From Casimicrobiaceae bacterium (GTDB taxonomy: Bacteria > Pseudomonadota > Gammaproteobacteria > Burkholderiales > Casimicrobiaceae): a DNA stretch of 64,000 bases. Positions 24,415-45,277 of the stretch are shown here, piece by piece. The stretch spans positions 124,001 to 188,000 of the forward strand of contig JAPKHK010000003.1 of the NCBI GenBank assembly GCA_026646885.1, written 5' to 3'. The position numbers and the translations under genes are program-made. Numbering within the stretch: position 1 is the first letter of the stretch; each line of letters opens with the position of its first letter. The notes under the pieces are model-generated. The model was not told the DNA's origin. It made no database searches and worked only from the letters and a program-made list of their open reading frames with translations.

Positions 24415-26148
24415 CTAGTGGATCTCGGTCGCCGCCGCTCCTCCAGTGCGTGCCTTGAGCATCTGAAACACCGCGTCGGGTCCTAGAGGCCGAGCGAAGA
24501 AATACCCCTGCACACGTTCGCAGGCGAGGCCGCGTAGGAACTCCACTTGCTCCTCGGTTTCAACCCCTTCGGCCTGGACAACGAGCTTCAAGGTCTTCGC
24601 GAGCGTGGTGATGGCGCGCACGATGGCCGAATCGTCAGCGTCCGCCGGGATGTCGCGCACAAACGACTTGTCGATCTTGAGTATGTCCAGAGGGAAACGG
24701 CGCAAATAGGAGAGCGAGGAATACCCCGTGCCAAAGTCGTCGATGGAGATGCGCACGCCGAGCTCTTTGAGATTGCGCAGCATGCGAATGGTATTGTCGA
24801 CTTCCTGCATCACCGCCGACTCGGTGATTTCTAGCTCCAGGAAGTGGGGGTTGAGCCCGGTGCGATCGAGCACGGTGCGCACGCGCGAGAGAAAGTCGGC
24901 CGAGCGAAACTGCATTGCGGAAACGTTTACGGCGATACTCAGGCGGTCAAAACCAAGGTTGTGCCAAGCGCGAGTCTGCGCGCAGGCCTCTTCCATCACC
25001 CACGCGCCAATCTCGGTGATTAGGCCCGTCTCGTCGGCGAGCGCGATGAATTTGTCCGGTTGCACCACGCCAAATTCCGGATGACGCCAGCGTACCAATG
25101 CCTCGCAACCGGCGATTTGGCCGCTCGCCAGATCGTAGCAGGGTTGGTATTGCACGAACAGTTCGTGCCGTTCGAGAGCGCGCCGCAGGCTCGATTCCAA
25201 GATCAGATGCTCGCCCGATGCGCGCGAAAACTCGTTCTGGTAGAACTGGTAAGTGTTCCGCCCCGAATGCTTGGCGAGATGCATCGCGCTCTCGGCGTTC
25301 TTCAGCAGCGTGGCGACATCGCGCCCATCCTCTGGAAATACCGAAAGGCCCACGCTGACCGTGATGTAGAAGTCGATGCCATTCCAGTTGAAGGGCTCGG
25401 CAAAAGCCGCGAGCACCTTTTCCGCCACTTTTCTGGTTTCCTCCTGATCGGTGACGTCGGCGACAAACAGTGCGAACTCATCGTGCCCCAGCCGCGCGAG
25501 ATATCCCTCTTGGGGCACGTTCGCCAATAAGCGACGCGATGCCTGCTCAATCAGCCGATCGCCGGTGGCATAGCCAAAAGTGGAATTGATGCGCGCGAAC
25601 CGGTCCAAATCCAGGAAAGCGATAACGCCGCGCACCGGCTCGCCCAGGGTGGGCTGGCAGCGCGCGTCCACCTCCTTGCAGAAGCGCTGGCGGTTGGGTA
25701 ACCCGGTGAGATCGTCGAAATAGCATAGCTGCTCGATGTACTCGTCGGCGCGCTCCTTGGCGCGACGAATGGCGGCATTGGCGATTTCCCGCTCGATCGC
25801 CGGCACCAACCGCCGGATATTGCCCTTCTCCACACAGTCGCTCGCGCCCTGCAGCATCGTGGTGACCGCGGTCTGCTCGTTGATTTGCCCGGAATAGATC
25901 AGGAAGGGAATGTCCTTGCCGCTTTCCTTGACCACGTCCAGCGCCTCGACGGCGGAGAATCCCGGCATGGCGTGGTCGGAAATGATGACGTCCCAGTCCG
26001 ATTCGCGCAGCGCCTTGCGTAGATCCGCGGCCGTATCCACCCGCTCGTACTCGACGACCGGACCGGCGGCGCACAGCCCGGTATAGAGCAAGAAGGCATC
26101 GTCATCGGAGTCGTCGACGATCAAGACCTTGCGCGCGCGCTGGGACAT
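24415..26148 (-). CDS. receiver-GGDEF-EAL protein, probable c-di-GMP phosphodiesterase
   Basis: 577 aa from ATG 26148. Receiver (~5-125; VLIVDDSDDD, VIISDHAMPGF with acceptor Asp), a GGDEF domain whose active-site motif is degenerate (RLGHDEF), and a complete EAL domain. EAL residues visible: CEALVRW, VNVSAMQF, ITESAV, IDDFGTGYSS, KIDKSFV, AEGVETEEQ, QGYFFARP. It should therefore hydrolyse c-di-GMP, with the GGDEF part perhaps regulatory. An ATG at 26175 overlaps the stop of the upstream HDOD-GGDEF gene (TAATG), so a longer coupled product is possible. A near-perfect sigma28 promoter at 26183-26209 would give a transcript starting close to 26176, favouring ATG 26148. Confidence 0.88.
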   Translation of the reverse strand: MSQRARKVLIVDDSDDDAFLLYTGLCAAGPVVEYERVDTAADLRKALRESDWDVIISDHAMPGFSAVEALDVVKESGKDIPFLIYSGQINEQTAVTTMLQGASDCVEKGNIRRLVPAIEREIANAAIRRAKERADEYIEQLCYFDDLTGLPNRQRFCKEVDARCQPTLGEPVRGVIAFLDLDRFARINSTFGYATGDRLIEQASRRLLANVPQEGYLARLGHDEFALFVADVTDQEETRKVAEKVLAAFAEPFNWNGIDFYITVSVGLSVFPEDGRDVATLLKNAESAMHLAKHSGRNTYQFYQNEFSRASGEHLILESSLRRALERHELFVQYQPCYDLASGQIAGCEALVRWRHPEFGVVQPDKFIALADETGLITEIGAWVMEEACAQTRAWHNLGFDRLSIAVNVSAMQFRSADFLSRVRTVLDRTGLNPHFLELEITESAVMQEVDNTIRMLRNLKELGVRISIDDFGTGYSSLSYLRRFPLDILKIDKSFVRDIPADADDSAIVRAITTLAKTLKLVVQAEGVETEEQVEFLRGLACERVQGYFFARPLGPDAVFQMLKARTGGAAATEIH

Positions 26149-26174
26149 GGGGGACTCAAGCACAAAATTAAGCA

Positions 26175-28142
26175 TTAACGGTTTATCGGCGGCGTAGTTG
26201 AGAACTTTAGCCCCCCGTCAGGTTTTTTTTCGAAGCCCGCCGGGAGGGCGACCGACACGCGGTTTCTCCCGGCCGCCTTGGCTTCGTAAACCGCGGTGTC
26301 GGCGAGGCGGACGAGGGCGGCGGTGTCGGGCACACCGGGCATCCGACAAGCGACTCCGATACTGACCGTCACGCCCAGACCGGGAATCCCGGCCACAGGG
26401 CTACCGGCGGCCACGGCGTGCCGCAAGCGCTCCGCGCAAATGCGCGCACTCTCCTCATCGGCGCCGGGGGCTATCACGAGGAACTCCTCGCCGCCCAAGC
26501 GGCAGGTGATGTCGCTGGCGCGGGCGGTTTGCTTGAGCGTGGCTCCCACCCAGCCCAGGACCTCATCGCCCACCTCATGACCGTGACTGTCGTTGAGGGA
26601 TCTGAAGTCATCGATGTCCACCATCATCACCGCCAAGGGGCGCGCCAGCCGTGCCGTCGCCGCCCACTCCTGCGCCAACCGATCGAGGGCGCAACGACGA
26701 TTGGGCAAACCGGTCAGCGGATCGGTGAGAGCCGCGTCCTTGAGGCGCCGGTTGCTCACCGCCAGCTCGGCAGCGAAGCGACGGATCTCCTCTTTGTCCC
26801 GTTCGATCTCGCTTTGCAGAGCCACGACGCGCTGACCTGCCGACAGACGCGCGCGTAGCATGCGCGGGTTGACCGGCTTGGGCAGAAAATCGTCGACGCC
26901 GGCTTCGAAGGCTTCCATCACCCGCTCTTCGTCTTCCAAACCCGTGAGCATCAGCACGTACATGTTGCGGCCCAGGCGTGTGGCGCGCAACGCCTTGCAG
27001 AGGGCGAGCCCGTCCATGCCTGGCATGATCCAATCGATCAGCACGATCTGCGGGGACAGTTCCACCGCGAGGCGCAAGGCCTCTTCGCCGCTTTCCGCGG
27101 CATAGACGGCGTGCCCCCAGCCGGCGAGGGTGCTGGCAACGAGCATCCGCATCGATCGATCGTCGTCCACGACCAGGATGCGCAAGCCTTCGCCGCCGCC
27201 TGTCTGCGGCGTCTGCGCCTCGATCACAGAGCGCGAAGCTTCCGCTCGATAGGGTGCAATCGGCGGTGTCTGGACTTGCAGAATCGCCCCCCATTCACTC
27301 CACTGCGCCGCGAGCGTGGCTATGACTTCGCCAATCGCCGCGTCATCTTGCCCCAGCTTGGCAAAGAGCTCGACGAGCCGCGGGACGAGGGCAATCCTCT
27401 GGCCCTCGCCAGCCAGTGCCATTTCGGCCAACGCCCTTGCCGCTGCCAGCAGGTGCGTCAGGCGGTCGGCCCGGGATCCGCCCTCATAGCGGGCTCGCTC
27501 GGGAAACTCATGAAAATAGGCTGGCTCGGCCAGGGCCTGGGGCAAGCCCCAATCCTGCAGTAGCGCGCGGGTGAGTTCTTGGTGGTCGAGGGCAAACGCG
27601 CGCTGCTCCTGGCGAATCAAGTCGACCCGGGACGCTTCGCCTTCCTTGAGCACGCGGGTGTAATCGATGGGATACAGCGTTGCCAGCGCCAGTTCCCCAA
27701 CGCGCAACAAGAGCCCCACCACGAACCCCTCCTCCGCCGCCACAATCCGCGTGCGCGCGCACAGTGAACGTGCGGCGAGCGCCGCAAGCAGGGAATTCGA
27801 CCAGAAGTCTTGATAGGCGAAACCCTGGCATTTGCCGGTGCTGTAGGAAGCAATCAGCGAAAACCCCAGCGCCAGCTGCCGCACCACGGCAAAGCCGAGT
27901 ACAACCAAGGCGTCATTGACGGAAACGACCGGCCGTCGCCCTCCAGCGTGCACTGAATTAGCCGCCCTGACGATGCGTCCGGCCAGCGCCGGATCACTTT
28001 TGATGACGCGGGCGATCTCCTGGTTGGTGACGTTCTCGCGCTCCGCGAGCTGCATGAGCGTCAGCGCCACCCCCTTGGGCGAGGGCAGGCTTCCGGCAGC
28101 CCGCAGCGCTTCGATCTTGGCGTTGTCCAGATTGTCGATCAC
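26175..28142 (-). CDS. HDOD-receiver-GGDEF protein, probable diguanylate cyclase
   Basis: About 655 aa from a GTG at 28142 with GGAG six bases upstream; ATGs at 28199 and 28274 extend the same frame. Order: HDOD domain (~5-260; LPSPKGVALTLMQLAERENV, VNDALVVLGFAVVRQLALG), receiver (~330-450; RILVVDDDRSMRMLV, VLIDWIMPGMDG), GGDEF (~490-650). The active motif is CRLGGEEF. Five residues before GGEEF, RASD forms the RxxD inhibitory site, so activity with product feedback is expected. Its stop overlaps the start of the phosphodiesterase frame (TAATG). Opposing enzymes in one unit suggest local c-di-GMP control. Confidence 0.85.
   Translation of the reverse strand: MIDNLDNAKIEALRAAGSLPSPKGVALTLMQLAERENVTNQEIARVIKSDPALAGRIVRAANSVHAGGRRPVVSVNDALVVLGFAVVRQLALGFSLIASYSTGKCQGFAYQDFWSNSLLAALAARSLCARTRIVAAEEGFVVGLLLRVGELALATLYPIDYTRVLKEGEASRVDLIRQEQRAFALDHQELTRALLQDWGLPQALAEPAYFHEFPERARYEGGSRADRLTHLLAAARALAEMALAGEGQRIALVPRLVELFAKLGQDDAAIGEVIATLAAQWSEWGAILQVQTPPIAPYRAEASRSVIEAQTPQTGGGEGLRILVVDDDRSMRMLVASTLAGWGHAVYAAESGEEALRLAVELSPQIVLIDWIMPGMDGLALCKALRATRLGRNMYVLMLTGLEDEERVMEAFEAGVDDFLPKPVNPRMLRARLSAGQRVVALQSEIERDKEEIRRFAAELAVSNRRLKDAALTDPLTGLPNRRCALDRLAQEWAATARLARPLAVMMVDIDDFRSLNDSHGHEVGDEVLGWVGATLKQTARASDITCRLGGEEFLVIAPGADEESARICAERLRHAVAAGSPVAGIPGLGVTVSIGVACRMPGVPDTAALVRLADTAVYEAKAAGRNRVSVALPAGFEKKPDGGLKFSTTPPINR
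26183..26209 (-). promoter_or_regulatory. sigma28 (FliA) promoter of the EAL phosphodiesterase gene
   Basis: Minus strand: TAAAGTTC at 26209-26202 (7 of 8), 11-base spacer, GCCGATAA at 26190-26183 (8 of 8). It is the closest match to the E. coli FliA consensus in the window. It lies inside the last codons of the upstream HDOD-GGDEF gene, 35 bases before ATG 26148. It would let FliA express the phosphodiesterase without the cyclase. Confidence 0.65.
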
Positions 28143-28871: not shown

Positions 28872-31800
28872 TTACCCTAGCGTAAAGAACATCTTGGTGC
28901 CCTGCTCGGGTGCGCTCTGGGCCCAAATCTTGCCACCATGCACGCGCACCACACGTTGTGCGGTAGCGAGCCCTATGCCCGTGCCCTCGAACTGGTCGCG
29001 ATGGTGCAGCCGCTCAAACGGCGCAAAGAGCCGGTCCGCGTAGCGCATGTCGAAGCCAGCGCCATTGTCGCCGACGCAATAGACCACGGTACCACCCTGC
29101 ACCTCGGCGGTGAACGCAACTTCCGCCAGCGGCTTCTTCGCGGTGAATTTCCAGGCGTTCCCCAGCAGGTTCTCCAGCAGCACGCGCAAGAGCTTGGGAT
29201 CACCGCGCACATGCAGGCCAGCGGCGATGCTGACCATGGCACGGCGCTGCATCTGGTTCTGCTGCAAGGCATCGATCACTTGCCGGCCGATTTCCGACAG
29301 ATCGACCTCCTGGCGGGTGACTCCGCCACGAGTCACCATCGATAGCCGCAGCAGATCGTCTATGAGCTCGCTCATCCGTCGGCAGCCCGCGCGCACTCGA
29401 TCGAAGTAGGCCTGGGCCTCGGCATCGAGTCTTTCGCGATAACGCTGGCTGACGATTTGCGTGAAGCCATCGATGGTCCGCAACGGCGCCCGCAGATCGT
29501 GCGATACGGAATACGAAAAAGCCTCCAACTCCTTGTTGGCGGCTTCCAACTGCGCCGTGCGCTCCTTCACCCGCTCCTCGAGCGAAGTCTGCGCCGCCTT
29601 CACCGCGGCTTCGTCTTGGGCTCGCTCCAAAGTCAGTGCGGCCAGAGCCGAGCCAACCGAGAGCAACTGCACGTCCCAAGTCGGCGGTCGCATCGGCTCG
29701 GGGTAATAGACTGCGAGCGTACCGAGGACCTCCCCGCGCCGCCCGAGCACGGGTACGGCGGTGCACGCCTGGAGTCCGCACTTCAGCGCGGCCGCCCGCT
29801 GTTCCTCCCAAAGCACGTCGAGGGCGATATCGGAAACCACCACCGGCTCGCGTCGAAAGGCCGCGGTGCCGCTCGAACCTTCCCCCTCGCGCACAGCCAT
29901 CCCATCGCACGCCCTCTGGTATTCCACGGGCAAGCTGGGGCAGGGTCCTAAACGCAAGCGGGCCCCGCCCTCCTCGACGCGAAACAGTCCGCACCGCCCC
30001 AGCTCCATTTCGCTTTCCAGTGCCTGCACCAGGGAAAAGAGCGTGAAGTCCAGATCACTGCCCGTAGCGACGCGCTCGAAGGTGCGGCTTTGCAAGCTGA
30101 GCAAGCTCTCAGCGTGGCGCCTTTCCGTGATATCCACCCCTGAACCGATGAAACCCAGGTCCCGCCCGTCGTCGGCACGGCGCGGCGTGCCGGAAAGCAG
30201 CAGCCAGCGCACCGAGCCATCGCCGCGCCGCGCGCGGCACTCCAGGCGGAAGGCGCGCCCCTGGGCGTGGGCCTCGGCAAGCCCTGTTTCCCAGGCCGCC
30301 CTATCCGCGGGCAGCACGACCTGCGACCACGACGCGAGCTTCGGCGCCGCTCCCATACCACCAGCGAACTCGGCCAATTGACCATTGAAGTAGCTGAAGT
30401 GGCCTTCGCTATCGGTCAGCCAAACCATCACCGGAGCCGCCTCCGCGAGCGCGCGGAAGCGCGCTTCGCTTTCCCGCAACGCAAACTCGGCCTCACGCTG
30501 CGCGGTGATATCGATCACTCCGCCGATGCGCCTGTAGATCTTGCCAGTGTCGTCGTGGAGGATGACACCGCGGTCGACCACCCAAGCATAGCTGCCGCTC
30601 GCTCGCGCAAAGCGATACTCGGCGTTCATCTCGCGGCCGCCTGCCGCCGCCACCGCCGCGTAGTTCGCCATCACCGCTTCGCGATCATCCGGATGCACCC
30701 GCTCCAGCCACCACTCAGTGCGCAGGTCTTGACCGGCGACTTGGTAGCCAAAAATCTCATCGATGCCCCGCGTCCAGCGCGTGATGCCGCTCGCTTCATC
30801 ATGGTCCCAAATGGCGCTGACGGTTGCTTGCGCAACGACACGATATCGATCCTCGGCTATTCCCAGCGCCTCGCTCAAGCGGACGATCGCGGTAACGTCC
30901 CGCGCCGTTCCGTGATAACCCTGGAATTCGCCATCGGAGCCGAAGATCGGCACACCGCTAATGCTGATGTAGCGAACGCCATTCGTCTGCTGCCGCGCCA
31001 GAATCAAATCATGAAAGGGTTCGCGCTTGGCGAGAACTGCCTGGTGGCGAACCCAATCGGCAGCAGTGACCCCAACCCAGGGCATCTCCCAGCGGAACTT
31101 GCCGAGGTAGTCCTGGCCGTCGAAAGCGCGGCCCCCGCCCGCGGCGACGATCTCGCTGAAACGCAAATCGGGGCCCTGCGCCCAATACCAATCCGCCGCG
31201 GTCTCGAGCAAGGAGCGAAAGCGCTCCTCGCTCTCGCGTGCCGCCATTTCGGCGACGAACTCGTGACTGATGTTCTTGCCCACGCCGCGGTAGCCAAGAA
31301 ATTCTCCGCTTTCGCCGAATAGCGGGTTGCCGCTGCTCGAGAAATACAGTTTCTGCCCACCAGCGCGCAAGTGCACGTATCTCACGTCACGAAATGGCAA
31401 GTGCGCATCCAGAACGCGTCGGTGTTCCTCGGCGGTCCCACCAATGAATTCACTGGCCAGTTCGAAACGCGTCTTGCCCAGGGCTCGCGCCGGTACGAGA
31501 CCACAGCGCGCTGCGCCTTCGGAAAAATAGGTGAAGCGGCCGTGCTCGTCTTGTTCCCAAGCGTAGTCGGTGGACAGATCGATCAACTCGCGGTGGCGGC
31601 GCTCGGCCGCTTCGAGCGCCGCGGTCTTGGCTTCGAGTTCGGCCATGCGCGCCGCCATTTGGGGCGGGATGGCCGCGCCAGACACTGGCGTCGCAGTGTC
31701 CGTCACCGCCGTCCCCTTGCCGCAGGACCAGCCAAGCCACGCTGCGCCACCGCCAAAGACCGCGGCAAGCAACAGCCAGGCGGGTCCGTCGATGGGAAGT

Positions 31801-31898
31801 AGTGCCAGGCCCAGCGCCGCGGTGGCGGTGATGCCGGCCGCCAGTCCTTTCGAGCGGGGCCAGCGAAACGTCACGGCGGCGTTGTTCGGTTCGGGCAT
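28872..31898 (-). CDS. multi-PAS/GAF sensor histidine kinase
   Basis: 1008 aa. Two short membrane helices at ~20-55, then about four PAS domains (~100-600; repeated WxxxVHPDD and FxGYHGTARDVT-like ends), a GAF domain (~610-770, starting TFERVATGSDLDFTLFSLV), HisKA and HATPase. The phospho-acceptor is H800 in FSYSVSHDLRAPLRTIDGF. ATP-site motifs NLLGNAWKF, DNGAGFDM and GTGIGLATA are intact. It is of the cytoplasmically sensing phytochrome-like class; no bilin cysteine was sought or seen. The downstream single-receiver gene is its likely partner. Confidence 0.88.
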   Translation of the reverse strand: MPEPNNAAVTFRWPRSKGLAAGITATAALGLALLPIDGPAWLLLAAVFGGGAAWLGWSCGKGTAVTDTATPVSGAAIPPQMAARMAELEAKTAALEAAERRHRELIDLSTDYAWEQDEHGRFTYFSEGAARCGLVPARALGKTRFELASEFIGGTAEEHRRVLDAHLPFRDVRYVHLRAGGQKLYFSSSGNPLFGESGEFLGYRGVGKNISHEFVAEMAARESEERFRSLLETAADWYWAQGPDLRFSEIVAAGGGRAFDGQDYLGKFRWEMPWVGVTAADWVRHQAVLAKREPFHDLILARQQTNGVRYISISGVPIFGSDGEFQGYHGTARDVTAIVRLSEALGIAEDRYRVVAQATVSAIWDHDEASGITRWTRGIDEIFGYQVAGQDLRTEWWLERVHPDDREAVMANYAAVAAAGGREMNAEYRFARASGSYAWVVDRGVILHDDTGKIYRRIGGVIDITAQREAEFALRESEARFRALAEAAPVMVWLTDSEGHFSYFNGQLAEFAGGMGAAPKLASWSQVVLPADRAAWETGLAEAHAQGRAFRLECRARRGDGSVRWLLLSGTPRRADDGRDLGFIGSGVDITERRHAESLLSLQSRTFERVATGSDLDFTLFSLVQALESEMELGRCGLFRVEEGGARLRLGPCPSLPVEYQRACDGMAVREGEGSSGTAAFRREPVVVSDIALDVLWEEQRAAALKCGLQACTAVPVLGRRGEVLGTLAVYYPEPMRPPTWDVQLLSVGSALAALTLERAQDEAAVKAAQTSLEERVKERTAQLEAANKELEAFSYSVSHDLRAPLRTIDGFTQIVSQRYRERLDAEAQAYFDRVRAGCRRMSELIDDLLRLSMVTRGGVTRQEVDLSEIGRQVIDALQQNQMQRRAMVSIAAGLHVRGDPKLLRVLLENLLGNAWKFTAKKPLAEVAFTAEVQGGTVVYCVGDNGAGFDMRYADRLFAPFERLHHRDQFEGTGIGLATAQRVVRVHGGKIWAQSAPEQGTKMFFTLG

Positions 31899-34034: not shown

Positions 34035-34061
34035 TAAAGGATGTAAGGCTTTTGCCGTTAC
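34035..34061 (+). promoter_or_regulatory. sigma28 (FliA) promoter of the hybrid kinase gene
   Basis: TAAAGGAT at 34035-34042, 11 bases, GCCGTTAC at 34054-34061, 70 bases before the kinase ATG. It matches the core TAAAG and GCCG(A/T)TA. Divergent from the chemoreceptor promoter in the same 328-base intergenic region. Confidence 0.55.
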
Positions 34062-34066
34062 CGCCC

Positions 34067-34144
34067 ATGAGCATGAACTCTGTCCAAGGCCTCCTGCAAG
34101 AATGCGAAACCTACCCGCCGCAACTCGACGATGAACCTGAGTGA
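34067..34144 (+). CDS. possible 25-residue leader peptide overlapping the hybrid kinase start
   Basis: A short frame begins ATG AGC ATG AAC at 34067, just after the predicted sigma28 -10, and ends at TGA 34142-34144, 14 bases into the kinase gene. The peptide is MSMNSVQGLLQECETYPPQLDDEPE by translation. It could couple translation to the kinase start, which has no evident ribosome site. There is no homology evidence, and chance is a real alternative. Confidence 0.2.
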   Translation: MSMNSVQGLLQECETYPPQLDDEPE

Positions 34145-37100
34145 ATCCCCCTTGCCGCCAGCGCTCTCTCCCCATCGCGTCCCGGAGCCCCACACGGATA
34201 GCAAAGAGGAAGTCGGCTCGGTAAGAGCAGAAAAGTGGCTGCTCGCCCTCATCCCGGCGATGGGAATCGCCACGACCGTGGGCGGTGTCATCGCCGCCGG
34301 GGACAACCGACTCTGGGCCTATCTCATTCTCACCATGGGTCTGGCGACCACCGCCGGCCTGGCGCTCCTGGTGCGCAGTTGGTTCTCCCGGGCTCTAGCC
34401 CGTGAGATCGAACAGGCGCGAAGCGTCGAGGACCTGCGGCGTGCCAAGGCGGAAGCGCAAGCGGCCTGGTGGCAGAGTCCCATCCCGCTGTTTCGCGCCG
34501 ACGCCACCGGCGCTTGGACGGCGGTGAACCCCAGCCTGTGCACGCTGCTGCGACGGACTCCCGAGGAATTGATCGGTGACGGCTGGTGGCGCGGCATCGA
34601 CCGCCGCGACCTGGCCGCCATGGACGCACCCTGGCGTACCGCACTGGCCGAGCGGCGCAGTTTCGATAGCCGCTGCCGGATCACCACTGGGGAAGGACAG
34701 CCGCTGTGGCTGGAGTTGCACGTCGCGCCCCTCACCGATGCGCCTGGCTTCTGTGGTGGTCTCATCTCCATCGACAGTGAAGAGCAATTGCGCAGAGACC
34801 TCGCGCAAGCCCAGGAACACCGTGATCTGGTGCTCGACGGCCTGAATGCGGCGGTCTTTGACTGGGACGTCGCGAGCGGACGCATACGGCTCACACGGCA
34901 ATGGCCCAAAATGCTCGGCGAGGAACCCGCGACTGTCGAAGCCAGCGCCGCCGAACTCGAAACCTTGGCACATCCAGAGGACCGCGGCCCGATTCAGGCG
35001 CAGGCTGTTGCCGCGCTCAATGGCGCGACCCCTTTCTATCATGTCGAGCACCGCATTCGCCGCGGTGATGGGCATTGGATCTGGGTCGAGAGCCACGGCA
35101 AAGTGGTGCAGCGGGCAGCCGATGGCAGCGCGCTACGCATGGTCGGTTACAACCGCGACGTCACCCTGAGGAAGCGCCTCGAAGCGGCCCTGCGCGACGC
35201 CGAAGCTCACCATGCCAGGGTTCTGGATGATATGAGCGAGGTGCTGTTCCGCACCGATGCCGCCGGGCACTTCACCTATCTCAATGCCACTTGGACCGAG
35301 CTCACCGGTCATGTGGCGGAGGACAGCCTGGGGCGGCCGCTGCAGCACTTCATCCACCCTGAAGACCGTGGCGAGATGTATCACCTGCTGCGCGGCTTGA
35401 CTGACGGGCGGCTCGCCGAAATCCGCCATGAAATTCGCGCCGCCGGCAAGGACGGCTTCGATCGCTGGCTCGAACTGCGCCTGCGCGCGCTCAAAGACGA
35501 CGAGGGCTTGCTCCAAGGCACCGCGGGTACGATGCACGACGTCACCGAGCGGCATCGCGCTGAACTGGAACTGCGCCGGGCCAAAGAAAGCGCCGAGAAT
35601 GCCAATCGGGTCAAGACCGATTTCCTCGCCAATGTCAGTCAGGAAGTGCGCACACCGCTGCATGGCATCGTCGGCATGGCCGATTTGATGCTGGAAGGGC
35701 AGCTCGATGAAGGCCAGCGCGAGCATTTGCAGCTGATCCGCGCCTCTTCCGCTTCGCTGTTGCGCACCCTCAACGAAGTGCTCGACTTCTCGCGCATCGA
35801 AGCGGGAAAAATGGGCATCGAGCTCGGCGAGTTTCCCTTGCAGCAAGCGCTGCAGCAAGCCACCAAGCCACATGCCCTGGTTGCCGCGCGCAAGGGTCTG
35901 AACCTGCGCATCAAGGTGGCCAACGAGGTTCCGGAAACACTTACCGGCGACGCCAAGCGCCTGGAGCAGGTGCTCGACCATCTTCTCGACAACGCGGTGA
36001 AGTTCACCGCCGCGGGAGAAGTCGAGCTTTCTGTGTTGGTACGCGCCGAGCTCTCGGAACGGGTCATGCTGGAGTTCATAGTCCGTGACACCGGCAGCGG
36101 CTTTTCCAGCCAGCAGCGCGAAAACCTTTTCGGCGCCTTCTCCCACGCGCAGCGCACCTCGGAAACCGGCCAATCCGGGGTCGGCCTGGGACTGGCGATC
36201 TGCAAGCGCCTGGCGGAGATGATGGGCGGCGAAATTTGGGCCGAGTCCGCTCCAGGACGTGGCAGCACCTTCCACTTCACCGCGCGCTTTTACCGGCCCA
36301 ACCCCCTGGTGGGTCGCGCGCTCGCTCTGCCGGCCGCCAAGCCGCGGGAGGCCGCCAAACCGAATCACGCTACCGGGCTAACGGTGCTGCTGGTGGAAGA
36401 TGACCTGCTCAATCAGAAAGTCGCCGCCAGCCTACTGCGCAGCCTTGGCCACTTCCCGAGCATAATCGCCAGCGGTGCCGAAGCCATCGTCGCCTGGGAA
36501 ACCACGCGTTTTGATCTCATGCTCATGGACTTGCAGCTGCCGCAGATGGGCAGCTTCGAAGCGGCACGCTACATCCGCGACAAAGAGAAGACGCGGGGGG
36601 AGCACTTGCCCATCATCGCCATGACCGCGCAAAACGACGACGATGATCGCGCCCGCTGTCAGGAGTTGGCCATCGACGAATGCTTATGCAAGCCCATAGA
36701 GAAGGATGCTTTGGCCGCGGCGGTGGACCGAGCGGCGGCACAGATCAAACCTCGGCGGCGGCCCGCCGCGAAGAAAGCGACTGGCTCCGGGACCTTGGAC
36801 CTCGATGCCGCGCTCGCACGCGTCAACAATGACGGCCCGATGATGGTGAAGATCCTCGAACTCTTTCGGGAACGCTGCCCCGCCGGCGTCGAGCTATGCC
36901 GCAAGGCGATCGCTGAAGGCGACAGCGCCACGCTGGCAAGTGCGGCGCACGGCCTCAAGGGCATGGCCGGCACCGTCGGTGCGGTACGTTTGCAGTCCTT
37001 GGCCGGAGCCCTGGAAAAGTGCGCGCGCGAAGCTCGCCTTGCGGATGGCCGCGCTGCCCTGGACAACGTCGACCGCGCGGTGAGCGAACTCCTGCCGCTC

Positions 37101-37151
37101 ATCGCAAGCGCCACGCGCGAGCTCGTGCCGATCCAGGCGACCGCCTCCTGA
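34131..37151 (+). CDS. PAS hybrid histidine kinase-like protein lacking the phospho-acceptor histidine
   Basis: 1006 aa. Two membrane helices (~38-57, 63-84), three PAS domains (~110-475), HisKA (~495-565), HATPase (~610-725), receiver (~750-870), HPt (~890-990). The H-box reads FLANVSQEVRTPLHG: the histidine is glutamine, Q504, codon CAG at 35640-35642. ATP-site motifs (LDNAVKF, DTGSGF, GVGLGLAI) look intact, as do receiver D800 (LMDLQLP) and HPt H940 (AAHGLKGMAG). It cannot autophosphorylate in the usual way; it may bind ATP as a pseudokinase, act in a relay fed by another kinase, or serve as a phosphate sink. Converges on the EAL-HDOD gene with a 24-base gap. Confidence 0.9.
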   Translation: MNLSESPLPPALSPHRVPEPHTDSKEEVGSVRAEKWLLALIPAMGIATTVGGVIAAGDNRLWAYLILTMGLATTAGLALLVRSWFSRALAREIEQARSVEDLRRAKAEAQAAWWQSPIPLFRADATGAWTAVNPSLCTLLRRTPEELIGDGWWRGIDRRDLAAMDAPWRTALAERRSFDSRCRITTGEGQPLWLELHVAPLTDAPGFCGGLISIDSEEQLRRDLAQAQEHRDLVLDGLNAAVFDWDVASGRIRLTRQWPKMLGEEPATVEASAAELETLAHPEDRGPIQAQAVAALNGATPFYHVEHRIRRGDGHWIWVESHGKVVQRAADGSALRMVGYNRDVTLRKRLEAALRDAEAHHARVLDDMSEVLFRTDAAGHFTYLNATWTELTGHVAEDSLGRPLQHFIHPEDRGEMYHLLRGLTDGRLAEIRHEIRAAGKDGFDRWLELRLRALKDDEGLLQGTAGTMHDVTERHRAELELRRAKESAENANRVKTDFLANVSQEVRTPLHGIVGMADLMLEGQLDEGQREHLQLIRASSASLLRTLNEVLDFSRIEAGKMGIELGEFPLQQALQQATKPHALVAARKGLNLRIKVANEVPETLTGDAKRLEQVLDHLLDNAVKFTAAGEVELSVLVRAELSERVMLEFIVRDTGSGFSSQQRENLFGAFSHAQRTSETGQSGVGLGLAICKRLAEMMGGEIWAESAPGRGSTFHFTARFYRPNPLVGRALALPAAKPREAAKPNHATGLTVLLVEDDLLNQKVAASLLRSLGHFPSIIASGAEAIVAWETTRFDLMLMDLQLPQMGSFEAARYIRDKEKTRGEHLPIIAMTAQNDDDDRARCQELAIDECLCKPIEKDALAAAVDRAAAQIKPRRRPAAKKATGSGTLDLDAALARVNNDGPMMVKILELFRERCPAGVELCRKAIAEGDSATLASAAHGLKGMAGTVGAVRLQSLAGALEKCAREARLADGRAALDNVDRAVSELLPLIASATRELVPIQATAS

Positions 37152-37175: not shown

Positions 37176-38441
37176 TTAACGGTGCAAAGCTCTTCCGGCT
37201 TCCGTGGCCCATTCGAGTGCCTGCGCGTGAAGCTGGTTGACCTGCGTCGCGCCGAGTCCAGCGGGCACGCGAGCCCAGCCCGACGCTTCATCGGGATTAC
37301 CATCGAGCGCGCTGACGAAGCCGAGCAGTTCTCCCAGCGGCCCTGCTTCGTCACGCAAGGCGCGCGCCACATCCTCGGCAACAGGCACGAGCCGCAAAAC
37401 GTCTTCGAGGGACAATCCCAGGACCGCCGGCAGAAATGAGAGAATTCCGGTGAGAAAGGCCCGCTCCGGCAAGCGCGCGTCCCCGCCACACTTTTCGGCG
37501 AGCAGTTCCAGAAAACGCGCGCGCGCCGCGGCCCATTGCAGCCGTGCCGCGGCTCCCGTATCTGCGCCGGAATTGGCGAAGATCAGCAGTTGCAACCAGC
37601 GCTGCAGTGGCTTCAAGCCGACCGCATAGAGGGCTTCGCGCAGGCTCGCCACCGGCCGCGCCAGGCCGATGCCAGGTGAGTTGGCCAAGCGCAACAAGCC
37701 TACCGCCAAAGCCGGCTCGCGCTTGATCTCCGCCTCGACTTCGACGCCACTGGCTTCGCGCAGCACAAGACCGAGAAGGCGAATCAGAGCAAGCTCCGAA
37801 TGATCCAGCTTCCGCCCGGTAACGATGGTCGGACGCGCGAAATAGAACCCCTGAAAGAGTTCGAAGCCGAGATCGCGACAAGCCTCCAGGCGCGCCCGGC
37901 TATCGATCTTCTCGGCGAGCAGCGTCACGTCGAACGGCCTTAGCTGGGCCACCAGCGCTGCCACTTCGGCATCGCCGAGCGGCAGGAGATCAACCTTCAC
38001 GATGTCGACGAACTCCAGGATTTCGCGAAAGCGATCTTCGTGCCGCGTATAGTCGTCGAGCGCGAGCGTGAACCCCGCGGACTTGAGCGCCCGGCATCGG
38101 GCGAGCACTCCGGGGCCGGGCTCGACGTGCTCGATAATCTCGATGACGAATCGCTCGGGATCGAGCAACTCCACGCTGCCGGAGTGCAGCATCACCGTGT
38201 CGAAATTGACAAAGGCGCGCTTGTCCTCGAGGGCGGCGTCCAAGCCCAGATCGGAGAGCACACGCAACAAGACGGTCGAAGTCGCCTCGGCATGGTTGTC
38301 GATGAGCGCAGCGCCCGAGGCCTTGTTCCGAAATAGCAGCTCGTAGGCAACGATCTGCTGGCGACGATCGAGTATGGGCTGCCGCCCAAGGAAACACTCG
38401 TCGGCGAGCTGCCTAGCGGGTCCGTCGCGCGAGGACTTCAC
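37176..38441 (-). CDS. EAL-HDOD signalling protein (EAL degenerate)
   Basis: 421 aa of the YuxH-like EAL plus HDOD class. N-terminal EAL-like domain (~15-215): the EAL triplet reads ELL (YELLFRNKA). NFDTVML, VIEIIEH, LALDDY, VKVDLL and LLAEKID are recognisable, but several catalytic positions are lost, so c-di-GMP hydrolysis is unlikely. C-terminal HDOD domain (~220-400; LVLREASGVEVEAEIKREPALAVGLLRLANSPG). Such proteins usually act as scaffolds or binding proteins. It is expressed leftward from a 648-base intergenic region shared with the receiver-PAS kinase gene. No sigma28-like element was found for it. Confidence 0.88.
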   Translation of the reverse strand: MKSSRDGPARQLADECFLGRQPILDRRQQIVAYELLFRNKASGAALIDNHAEATSTVLLRVLSDLGLDAALEDKRAFVNFDTVMLHSGSVELLDPERFVIEIIEHVEPGPGVLARCRALKSAGFTLALDDYTRHEDRFREILEFVDIVKVDLLPLGDAEVAALVAQLRPFDVTLLAEKIDSRARLEACRDLGFELFQGFYFARPTIVTGRKLDHSELALIRLLGLVLREASGVEVEAEIKREPALAVGLLRLANSPGIGLARPVASLREALYAVGLKPLQRWLQLLIFANSGADTGAAARLQWAAARARFLELLAEKCGGDARLPERAFLTGILSFLPAVLGLSLEDVLRLVPVAEDVARALRDEAGPLGELLGFVSALDGNPDEASGWARVPAGLGATQVNQLHAQALEWATEAGRALHR

Positions 38442-38880: not shown

Positions 38881-39089
38881 ACGGCACCAGGCAGCACCTA
38901 GGCCCACAAGCGCCGCCGCGTTAGTCCCGCCCTCTGCCAACACCTCAGCCGTGGTTCTGCCGCGCAATGCCGCTCACCCCATGGGCGCGAATCCGGCACT
39001 CTTAACGCCGGGCGCGGATTTGCGTATGATCCCGGTTGCCGGCTGGAGAAATGGCGAATACGGATGGAGGGGCTGGCCGGGGCCAACGC

Positions 39090-40589
39090 ATGAGCAAGGA
39101 ACTGCGGGTACTCTTTATCGAAGATTCCGAGGACGATGTCTTGCTCCTCGCGTCGCGCTTCGCCGCGTCGGGCTACGATCTGACTCAGCGGCGCGTGGAT
39201 ACGGCCGCCGGCGTGCGCACCGCGCTGACCGACCAGAGTTGGGACCTCATCCTCTGCGATCACAACATGCCGGGGTTCAATTCCAGCCAGGCATTGAGCA
39301 TCTTGAACGAGTTGGGCATCGACACGCCCTTCATCATCGTTTCCGGCATGATCGGGGAAGAGTCCGCCGTGGAGGCGATGCGTGCCGGCGCCAGCGACTA
39401 CCTGATGAAGGACAAGTTGAAGCGCCTCGTTCCCGCCGCCGAACGGGCCATCTACGCAGCACAGGTGCGCCGCGCGCACCGTCATGCCCGCCTAGCGCTC
39501 GTCGAAACCGAAGCGCGTCTGTCGCTCATCGCCGCCAATATCCCAGGCATGATTTTCCAGCTCACCCGTGGACGCGACAAGCTGCTGCATTTCACCTATG
39601 TGAGCGAAGGTTGCCAGACCCTTCTCGGTGTGGCGGCGGGCATGCTGCTGGAGCGCGCGGAGAATTTTCTTTCCTTGATCGTCGAGGACGATCGCGCCGC
39701 CTTCAATCGCAGCCTCGACCTCTCCGCCTCGGGCATGACCACCTGGAATTGGGAAGGCCGGATACGCTATGAATACTCCGGCACGGAGAAATGGGTCAAT
39801 TGGCGCTCTTCACCGCGCGGCCTCGACGATGGCCGAGTGGTCTGGGACGGCATCGTGTGGAACGTCACGCAGAGCAAGGTCGCAGAGGCCGAATTGCGCG
39901 AGTCGCGCGCGACGCTCTCGCAGCTCACTTCCCACCTCAACCATGTGCGCGAGGAAGAACGCAAGCGGCTTTCCCGTGAGATCCACGATGACATCGGCGG
40001 GATGCTCACCGCGCTCAAGATCGACGTTGCCTGGATCAAAGCACGGGCGACTTCGGAAAGCCCGGAATTTCAGGAAAAGATCGAAAGCCTCGACCTGCTG
40101 ATCGGGCAAATCATGACCGCCACCAGCCGCATCGCCAGGGACTTGCGCCCTGGTATCCTGGACTATGGTCTGGTTGCCTCGATCGAATGGTTGACCGCTG
40201 ACTTCGGCAAACATTCCGGCATTTCCTGCCACCTGCGCTGCAGCGAAGAGGACATTGAGCTCGACCCCGACATCGCCGCGGCGGTCTTTCGCATCTGCCA
40301 AGAGAGCCTGACCAACATCGCCAAACATGCGGCAGCAACCGAGGCGGTGATCTGGCTCGCGCGCACTTCCGATGGGCTTTCTCTGGAAGTCCGTGACAAT
40401 GGCCGGGGCATCGGCGCTGAGGAATTGCAGAAGCCGCGCGCTTTCGGCATCATCGGCATGAACGAGCGCCTGCGCCAGTTCGGTGGCAAACTTGAAATTG
40501 TCGGCGCCCCAGGCGGCGGCACCAGCGTCGTGGTGCATCTTCCCCTTGCTCCTGCCGGAGCGCCAGAAAAGCAGATGCCCTTGTTGTGA
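39090..40589 (+). CDS. receiver-PAS-histidine kinase (HisKA_3, NarX-like)
   Basis: 499 aa, soluble. N-terminal receiver (~1-125; VLFIEDSEDDVLLL, LILCDHNMPGF with acceptor Asp, YLMKDKLKRLVPAAERA), a PAS-like domain (~145-275), then the NarX/DegS-type dimerisation domain with H299 in LSREIHDDIGGML and a HATPase domain (VFRICQESLTNIAKHA, VRDNGRGI). ATG 39090 was chosen because the receiver begins there; ATG 39051 is an alternative. The next gene, 13 bases on, encodes a NarL-type regulator and is its evident partner. The receiver at the N-terminus of the kinase implies that the kinase is itself controlled by another phosphodonor. Confidence 0.9.
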   Translation: MSKELRVLFIEDSEDDVLLLASRFAASGYDLTQRRVDTAAGVRTALTDQSWDLILCDHNMPGFNSSQALSILNELGIDTPFIIVSGMIGEESAVEAMRAGASDYLMKDKLKRLVPAAERAIYAAQVRRAHRHARLALVETEARLSLIAANIPGMIFQLTRGRDKLLHFTYVSEGCQTLLGVAAGMLLERAENFLSLIVEDDRAAFNRSLDLSASGMTTWNWEGRIRYEYSGTEKWVNWRSSPRGLDDGRVVWDGIVWNVTQSKVAEAELRESRATLSQLTSHLNHVREEERKRLSREIHDDIGGMLTALKIDVAWIKARATSESPEFQEKIESLDLLIGQIMTATSRIARDLRPGILDYGLVASIEWLTADFGKHSGISCHLRCSEEDIELDPDIAAAVFRICQESLTNIAKHAAATEAVIWLARTSDGLSLEVRDNGRGIGAEELQKPRAFGIIGMNERLRQFGGKLEIVGAPGGGTSVVVHLPLAPAGAPEKQMPLL

Positions 40590-43217: not shown

Positions 43218-44768
43218 TCAGGAGGCATGCCCGGCGCCTCCCACGGTGAAATAGAAGCACGCCCCTTCTCCGAGTATTGCTTCCGCCCAGACCCTCCCGC
43301 CGTGGCGGTGAATGACCCGAGACACGGTCGCCAACCCGATGCCGGTGCCTGGAAACTCCGCGGGCGTATGCAACCTCTGGAAGGCGATGAAAAGCCTCTC
43401 GGCGTATTTCATGTCAAAGCCGACGCCATCATCGCGCACAAAGAAAACCTGCTCGGAATTCACCTCGCAGCGCCCGAAAACAATGCATGCGTGCTCACTC
43501 TTACCTGTGTATTTCCAAGCGTTGCCCAGAAGGTTCTCCAACACCACGCGCAGCAGGCCGGCGTCCCCAGTGGCAACAAGCCCGGGTTCGATAGACCATG
43601 CGACGCTGCGCCCGGAATCTCCCGCCTGCAACTCCCGCGCCACACTTGCGGCGATCTCGCTGAGATCCACCCGCTCCGGCTTCATTGCCCTCTGGCCCAC
43701 TTGCGACAAACGCAACAAGTCGTCGATCAGCGATTCCATGCGCTCCACCGCCGCCTGCACCCGGGCCAGGTAGTGGCGTGCCTGCTCGCTGATCTGATCG
43801 GTGCATTCCATGGTGACGAGATGCGAGAAACCGTGGATCGCGCGCAAGGGCGCGCGCAGGTCGTGCGAAACTGAATAGGTGAAGGCGGCCAACTCCCGGT
43901 TTGCCGACTCCAGCTCTTCGGTGCGTTGACGCACACGCTCCTCCAAGCTGCGGTTGAGCTGGGCGATTTGTTCTTCGCTGCGGCGCCGGGCGATGAGGTC
44001 ATCCTGGAGTTCCCGGTTGGCTACCCGCAAATCGGCATAGACATCGGATAGGCGCGATTGCAGTGCGGCAAACGATCCCCGCAATTGCTCCAACTCGTCC
44101 GGCACCTCCCCTTCCTTTGGAACCATCGCTGGCGGAGCCGGAGCCCCGATGTCCCAGGCGGCGATTTGCCCTGCCAGCGCCCCCAAGCGCATCGTCACCA
44201 CGCGATGGACGATGAACAGAATGAACAAAGAAATCAGGAAGGTCTTGACGCCTTGGCTGAGCACAATGATCAACGCACGTTCGGCGATCCGACGATAGAC
44301 GCCTTCCAGCGTCGCCGTGACTTGGAGCGAGCCGAGCGTGCGCGTCTCGCCACGATCATGGTAGACGATCGGTACGGTGCGGTGAAACGGCGCATCGGCG
44401 TCGACCGTGCCACTGCGCACGCGCAGCATGCCGTGCAGCTCCTCGACGCCCGCGCCCAGCACATCCGGCAAGCGGGCAATACCGTCGACCTGAAGCTGCA
44501 ACTGCTCGCGATCGAGCTTCCACAGACTGCCCGCCAACGATGAGAGGTAGCCACGTTCGATTTCCGCCAGGCGCGCCTCTATGCCATCGACGTCGCGGCG
44601 ATAATCGAGATACAGCTGCACCGAGGTGAGCACGAGCGTGGTGAGAGAGCTCGCTGCGAGAATGAGAATCAGCAAGCGCCTGCCGATTTGCCCTTTCCAG
44701 AACCAGACCCACGATGCCGGGGCGATGTCGTGGCGGCGTGGCTCGCTAGGGGCGGCAGTTTCACTCAT
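43218..44768 (-). CDS. membrane sensor histidine kinase
   Basis: 516 aa. TM helix (~30-52), periplasmic region of ~110 residues, second TM (~170-190), a linker with coiled coil (~230-290), HisKA and HATPase. H302 lies in FTYSVSHDLRAPLRAIHGF, and NLLGNAWKY, DDGVGFDM and GTGIGLATV are intact. ATG 44768 (MSETAAPSEP) was chosen over 44870, which would add a Cys/Arg-rich segment. It is the third kinase here with the phytochrome-like H-box and has no adjacent regulator on its strand. It is divergent from the solute-binding protein gene, a possible ligand carrier. Confidence 0.88.
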   Translation of the reverse strand: MSETAAPSEPRRHDIAPASWVWFWKGQIGRRLLILILAASSLTTLVLTSVQLYLDYRRDVDGIEARLAEIERGYLSSLAGSLWKLDREQLQLQVDGIARLPDVLGAGVEELHGMLRVRSGTVDADAPFHRTVPIVYHDRGETRTLGSLQVTATLEGVYRRIAERALIIVLSQGVKTFLISLFILFIVHRVVTMRLGALAGQIAAWDIGAPAPPAMVPKEGEVPDELEQLRGSFAALQSRLSDVYADLRVANRELQDDLIARRRSEEQIAQLNRSLEERVRQRTEELESANRELAAFTYSVSHDLRAPLRAIHGFSHLVTMECTDQISEQARHYLARVQAAVERMESLIDDLLRLSQVGQRAMKPERVDLSEIAASVARELQAGDSGRSVAWSIEPGLVATGDAGLLRVVLENLLGNAWKYTGKSEHACIVFGRCEVNSEQVFFVRDDGVGFDMKYAERLFIAFQRLHTPAEFPGTGIGLATVSRVIHRHGGRVWAEAILGEGACFYFTVGGAGHAS

Positions 44769-45277
44769 CGGGCGTCGTTCCCCGAACGCTTGCCCGGGGC
44801 GCGGGGCTGCGCACCGAAGCTCGGCCAGTACTGAAGGCTGCAGCCAGCACCTCGGTTCCTCCCGTTTCAAAGCGATCTCGGCACGGCCCGCCTTGTCGGC
44901 CTGTACGCGGCCTTGAACCGCAACGGGAGACTAGACAATCGTCCGCCCACCGTCAAGCCGCCCTGATCACTTTGGAAGTGAAACGCACCATTCGGCCACC
45001 ACGACTTCCAGTCACGCCCGAGGCGGCTCGGCGCCGCCCGGTCCGGCAAAGCCTCGCCCAGTCGGGGGGTTTCCCGGCCGGACGTAGGATACTCCCCCCG
45101 GCCAAGAATGCCGAGCCGTCGCCGCGTTGCGCCCTCAGACGCGCGCACCCCGGCGCTGCCTGCGCCGCCGCGATTGACAAGAGCGGCCTGGCGGCGCTTA
45201 AAATGCGACTCCGCCGAGCTGCGTTGCGTCAATTCCCCTGCGCTGGCGCCTCGGCCGCCTGCGCGAGAAGGACGATC
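44769..45277. other. divergent intergenic region, no gene recognised
   Basis: About 510 bases between a kinase gene and a binding-protein gene. Open frames here run into both genes but encode Arg/Pro/Ala-rich sequence with no domain features. No sigma28-like pair or strong hairpin was found. AGAAGGA at its right end is the ribosome site for the GTG at 45278. Confidence 0.4.

Follow-up and report, generated by a model that had tools for sequence, protein, structure and literature searches.

Sensor kinases that cannot load themselves with phosphate can still control others, as is the case for DivL, RetS and RcsD, and few cases catch the transition. RetS of Pseudomonas aeruginosa cannot autophosphorylate; it accepts phosphate from GacS on its receiver, and the Thr of its HExxT motif, a residue tied to transmitter phosphatase activity, serves to dephosphorylate GacS (PMC5992135). 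RcsD, a transmembrane protein of a phosphorelay, combines PAS-like, HATPase and HPt domains and is fed by the hybrid kinase RcsC, and its architecture suggests shared descent of the two from a duplicated ancestor (PMC7418988). DivL of Caulobacter has Tyr550 at the phosphorylation site, possesses neither kinase nor phosphatase activity, and binds DivK~P (PMC4211667). In a laboratory-evolved ChrS pseudokinase, a single kinase mutation rewires signalling at once via a related kinase (PMC9491836). Pseudo-histidine kinases are already known, and the protein described below is at most a new member of this set.

The window, that is, the whole stretch of 64,000 nt analysed here, contains a gene of a hybrid histidine kinase adjoining flagellar and chemotaxis genes. 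Further kinase genes lie nearby at 28872-31898, 39036-40589 and 43218-44870. The combination of its features is notable: Gln at the phosphorylation site, intact receiver and HPt domains, and an ATP lid that is also remodelled in a sister ortholog retaining the His. The features are as follows.

34035..34061, plus strand: sigma28-like promoter, TAAA-N15-GCCGTTAC, with 2/12 mismatches to TAAA-N15-GCCGATAA
34131..37151, plus strand: hybrid histidine-kinase gene, 1006 aa (open reading frame, translation and Pfam)
34239..34379, plus strand: a pair of predicted hydrophobic helices separated by a very short loop, residues 37-83 (from the translation)
34887..35558, plus strand: two PAS domains, PAS_3 at residues 253-341 and PAS_4 at residues 365-476 (Pfam)
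35613..35807, plus strand: HisKA (DHp) domain, residues 495-559 (Pfam), a predicted two-helix hairpin
35640..35642, plus strand: Q504 (CAG) replacing the phospho-accepting His (codon read; CAT in the sister ortholog)
35652..35654, plus strand: T508, the Thr of the HExxT motif, kept together with E505 (alignment to relatives)
35661..35663, plus strand: H511, seven residues past Q504, also in the sister ortholog (alignment)
35946..36287, plus strand: HATPase_c (CA) domain, residues 606-719 (Pfam)
35979..35981, plus strand: H617 in the N box, also in the sister ortholog; Asn in 89/89 relatives
36144..36182, plus strand: remodelled ATP lid and G2 stretch, residues 672-684, HAQRTSETGQSGV versus the QADSSTTRKYGGT type in relatives (alignment)
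36384..36725, plus strand: receiver domain, residues 752-865 (Pfam)
36528..36530, plus strand: D800, the phospho-accepting Asp of the receiver, kept; Asp in 88/88 rows
36552..36554, plus strand: S808, specific to the window kinase; Gly in at least 98% of relatives and in the sister ortholog (alignment)
36852..37091, plus strand: HPt domain, residues 908-987 (Pfam)
36948..36950, plus strand: H940, the phospho-accepting His of the HPt, kept and canonical (translation and alignment)

The window kinase resembles RetS as a hybrid kinase that keeps both the HExxT Thr (T508) and the receiver Asp (D800), the residue able to take phosphate in RetS, and the RetS DHp/CA structure (6dk7, E 6e-35) is among the closest solved ones by sequence. 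However, RetS has the His and has lost the G-boxes of its CA domain, whereas the window kinase has lost the His and keeps the G-box glycines; it also has an HPt domain, and no GacS-like partner has been identified. Like RcsD of the Rcs phosphorelay, it is a predicted transmembrane protein with PAS, HATPase and HPt domains. RcsD, in contrast, has an ABL domain and forms a conserved family, while the His loss considered here is seen in one species; moreover, RcsD is not known to have a phospho-accepting receiver, whereas the window kinase keeps its receiver, and no counterpart of RcsC is known. With DivL it shares PAS domains, the DHp/CA core and a non-His residue at the phosphorylation site. 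The DivL Tyr, however, is conserved across alphaproteobacterial homologs bar one Ala, while the Gln is not conserved, the sole ortholog having His, and the window kinase carries a receiver and an HPt, whereas DivL senses DivK~P by binding. The sister ortholog is the same gene with the same gene order, promoter footprint and ATP-site departures, and differs in having the His (CAT).

The protein has the HisKA-HATPase_c-REC-HPt architecture of hybrid kinases, the domain order being two putative transmembrane helices, PAS domains, HisKA (with Gln), HATPase_c, receiver and HPt. All its Pfam domains score well over the cut-offs (HisKA 64, HATPase_c 99, Response_reg 69 and Hpt 54 bits; PAS domains were also placed), and a third, divergent PAS-like stretch seems to be present at residues ~111-222. 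A pseudogene or broken reading frame is ruled out, as the frame is intact across 1,006 codons. The AlphaFold model of residues 476-990, built with 30 sequences, reaches a mean pLDDT of 83 and contains the DHp hairpin and the CA, receiver and HPt domains, with low confidence for ATP lid residues 673-682; Q504 falls inside the first DHp helix, and the predicted fold gives no hint of decay.

The H box of the window kinase reads FLANVSQEVRTPLHG, with Gln at residue 504 in NVSQEVRTPLHG. That CAG at 35640-35642 replaces the His was the starting point of the original prediction, and the coordinates, the codon and the H box were all verified. Ordinary autophosphorylation of a histidine kinase is impossible without the DHp His. 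Hence, with the canonical phospho-accepting His that characterizes hybrid kinases absent, this reaction should be impossible for the window protein. The relay parts are intact, and in these respects the original prediction is supported. The neighbouring I506V is a change found in the window kinase alone at a well-conserved site.

The substitution is rare. His occupies column 504 in 89/89 nearest hybrid-kinase relatives (the lone Q row of the alignment is the window gene itself, left out of the 89). The same genome is densely supplied with signalling proteins, having 53 HisKA matches, 52 of them above the Pfam cut-off, in 4.04 Mb, and its alignable matches yield 51 rows with H and one with Q, again the window gene; these counts take in a few duplicated rows. 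Searched with a degenerate DNA pattern, the Gln form of the motif turns up in 1/399 genomes of the order, the match being the window gene, and a slightly wider pattern finds the same gene in 1/398 genomes of the phylum, while the His form has ~302 matches in 100 genomes of the order. For this motif context, which is what the survey covers, these data rule out Gln H boxes as a recurrent variant, and Q504 is more than ordinary variation. No Gln-for-His kinase retaining phosphatase activity was found in the literature searched.

One ortholog was found, in contig JACPUX010000053.1 of a groundwater Betaproteobacteria MAG, the only other species of the genus examined. It is 65-66% identical to the window kinase over the full length, and its H box is NVSHEIRTPLHG, with the His codon CAT. 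The flagellar, chemotaxis and signalling block on both sides of the kinase has a gene order common to both species. In the sister species, the corresponding position lacks the EAL-HDOD gene (37176-38441, minus strand) that follows the kinase in the window and sits between it and the next histidine kinase. A scan of the genome collection and order-, family- and genus-wide protein searches yielded no further orthologs; the next best matches reach ~40% identity, and the ones looked at individually are canonical kinases with the His. The original prediction had left the conservation of Q504 to be decided by alignment of orthologs, and it proves not to be conserved: the sister ortholog and all relatives have His. 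A conserved His-less family is thereby ruled out, and there is no established His-less pseudokinase lineage. Given the His in the ortholog and relatives, Q504 most probably arose on the window lineage after the species split, and would have taken one transversion if the ancestral codon was CAT or CAC.

The ATP-site motifs had been described as kept, which holds in part. The catalytic Asn and Asp and the glycines are retained as in other hybrid kinases (N621, D653, G655, G657, G683, G685 and G687), but the canonical first Asn of the N box and residues of the ATP lid are not, and both regions are remodelled in both orthologs. The window kinase has N617H, Q672H, D674Q, R679T, G682S and T684V; in the ortholog these same positions are altered, identically in N617H, Q672H, G682S and T684V and differently in D674A and R679M. 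Taking as near-invariant the CA columns with at least 95% invariance across the 89 relatives (the R679 column falls just under this threshold), the window kinase departs from 5/33 and the ortholog from 6/33, while the 89 others have on average 0.29 departures and at most 2. The HATPase_c Pfam score is nevertheless high in both proteins (98.8 bits in the window kinase and 97.2 in the ortholog). Since the departures are common to the window gene and its His-bearing ortholog, the alignment indicates that remodelling of the ATP site took place in the common ancestor and preceded the loss of the His. The pair thus gives an apparent order of events, in which remodelling of the ATP site came first, while the His was still there, and loss of the His followed in one of the species. 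Remodelling is no proof of lost ATP binding, because ATP lids vary between kinase classes and also within this genome. N617H alone does not prove inactivity either, since the first N-box residue is likewise His in CheA, which is an active kinase.

The receiver Asp and the HPt His typical of hybrid kinases are both present and canonical, as the original prediction had stated, and D800, T832, K854, H940 and K943 are all kept. S808 lies in the PxMDG loop of the receiver, at a near-invariant Gly position. At the preceding position, 807, where Asp is usual, both orthologs have Gly.

The proposed sigma28 promoter is also supported by comparison with the sister species. When the bases of the intergenic region are shuffled, 0.2% of the copies contain a match at least as good as TAAA-N15-GCCGTTAC. 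The block GGCTAAAGGA...CGTTACCGCC recurs in the equivalent position ahead of the sister ortholog, in the most conserved part of an otherwise poorly alignable intergenic region. Given this rarity and conserved placement, the link of the kinase to flagellar expression, expected of a member of the sigma28 regulon, is well supported as a prediction. A leader block immediately downstream (34062-34086, CCGCC..TGAGCATGAACTCTGTCCA) is almost identical in both species and has no conserved open reading frame inside; it may be a regulatory element that follows the sigma28-like promoter. A short leader frame (MSMNSVQ...) was rejected as a gene, as it is not conserved. Elsewhere in the window, a perfect sigma28 consensus TAAA-N15-GCCGATAA is located at 26183-26209 on the minus strand, at the 3' end of an HDOD-REC-GGDEF gene and just upstream of the receiver-bearing gene 24415-26175; in the sister species this site is conserved with one mismatch.

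We tentatively favor, with a probability of about 0.4, an interpretation in which a hybrid sensor kinase of the flagellar regulon has become, in this species, a His-less pseudokinase that serves other kinases as a sink or relay for phosphate or as a phosphatase. A kinase-dead hybrid would be unable to start a phosphorelay by itself. The PAS domains would modulate the kinase-dead DHp/CA dimer, the receiver and HPt, via D800 and H940, would accept phosphate from another kinase or response regulator or return it, and T508 may help to dephosphorylate the receiver of a partner. The net effect would be to damp or redirect the signal of another kinase while flagellar genes are on. The modes of action suggested in the original prediction (dephosphorylation, uptake of phosphate or ATP-driven signalling) would be plausible in view of RetS, RcsD and DivL. 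This interpretation is supported by the Q504 codon, the His in the syntenic ortholog and in 89/89 relatives, the intact frame and relay residues, the ATP-site departures of both orthologs, the AlphaFold model and the RetS and RcsD precedents. It is also supported by the lack of clear relaxation in the kinase core, where dN between the two species is 0.088 (HisKA) and 0.127 (HATPase), compared to 0.276 for the whole protein. It would make repurposing of a sensor kinase testable on one natural His/Gln pair in a sigma28-linked gene. Repurposing is opposed by the facts that a single genome and a single nucleotide change are involved, that Gln is not conserved, and that no partner kinase or regulator has been identified. 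Further, the genome has no close His-bearing paralog with which heterodimers could form (the best-scoring other match has 35% identity), and the HPt is the fastest-evolving domain of the protein, with a dN of 0.572 as opposed to 0.194 in the receiver. The unusual S808 might also weaken the relay.

Of the alternatives, recent loss of function survives best, though we regard it as somewhat unlikely: a point mutation would have inactivated a dispensable, divergent kinase, and Q504 would mark early decay, not repurposing. Its lack of conservation fits this scenario, as do the two further changes at well-conserved sites seen in the window kinase alone, I506V and G808S, and the ATP-site departures common to the orthologs suggest that full kinase activity is only weakly required. 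The kinase is also the fastest-evolving of twelve syntenic pairs, with dN/dS of 0.23 compared to 0.04-0.15 for the others, the high value being driven by the N-terminal region, the first PAS stretch and the HPt. On the other hand, the frame is intact, the promoter footprint is conserved, the catalytic residues of the receiver and HPt are all kept, and the CA domain has no clear rate increase on the window branch. In relative-rate counts against outgroups, the mean numbers of unique sites are 3.1 vs 1.0 for HisKA and 3.0 vs 2.2 for HATPase; with two orthologs and such small numbers, these counts contain no clear acceleration on the window branch. Likewise, relaxed selection on this branch is not clearly seen, the numbers being small and dS, at ~1.2, near saturation; with only two orthologs and such dS, these rate tests are weak. 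The kinase core may lack clear relaxation just because the loss happened very recently.

It is less probable still that Q504 reflects an error of the assembly or consensus, or a variant of a minority strain, so that the population has His (CAT or CAC) and Gln is not fixed. CAG is one base away from both His codons, the ortholog and all relatives have His, and the window species is represented by a single genome. That genome, however, is 98.93% complete with 0 contamination, the contig is 392 kb long, there is no frameshift or stop, and the neighbouring codons diverge from the ortholog normally; besides, T/C to G transversion errors are uncommon in consensus sequences. If the Gln is such an error, or a fresh null mutation, the case is an ordinary one, and taken together recent loss and error or minority variation keep substantial weight.

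We consider it rather improbable that the His-less DHp/CA core works as a DivL-like sensor, binding a phosphorylated regulator and controlling a kinase by contact, without phosphate chemistry. DivL has Tyr at the same site, lacks enzymatic activity and binds DivK~P (PMC4211667), its structure (4q20, E 5e-34) is among the nearest solved ones by sequence, and the ATP lid of the window kinase is atypical; but the Tyr is conserved in most alphaproteobacterial DivL proteins while Q504 is not, the canonical D800 and H940 are retained, which points to continued phosphate chemistry, and no partner is known. Finally, an active kinase whose acceptor role has moved to H511, located about two helix turns downstream of residue 504 on the same DHp helix in a column with Asn in 88/89 relatives, is very improbable; here H511 would have arisen in the genus together with N617H, Q672H, G682S and T684V, making the old site dispensable before H504Q in this species.

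Another kinase of the same genome (399005-400891) has two HisKA-HATPase units in one open frame; the second of them carries HAMRTP, with Val as the first N-box residue.
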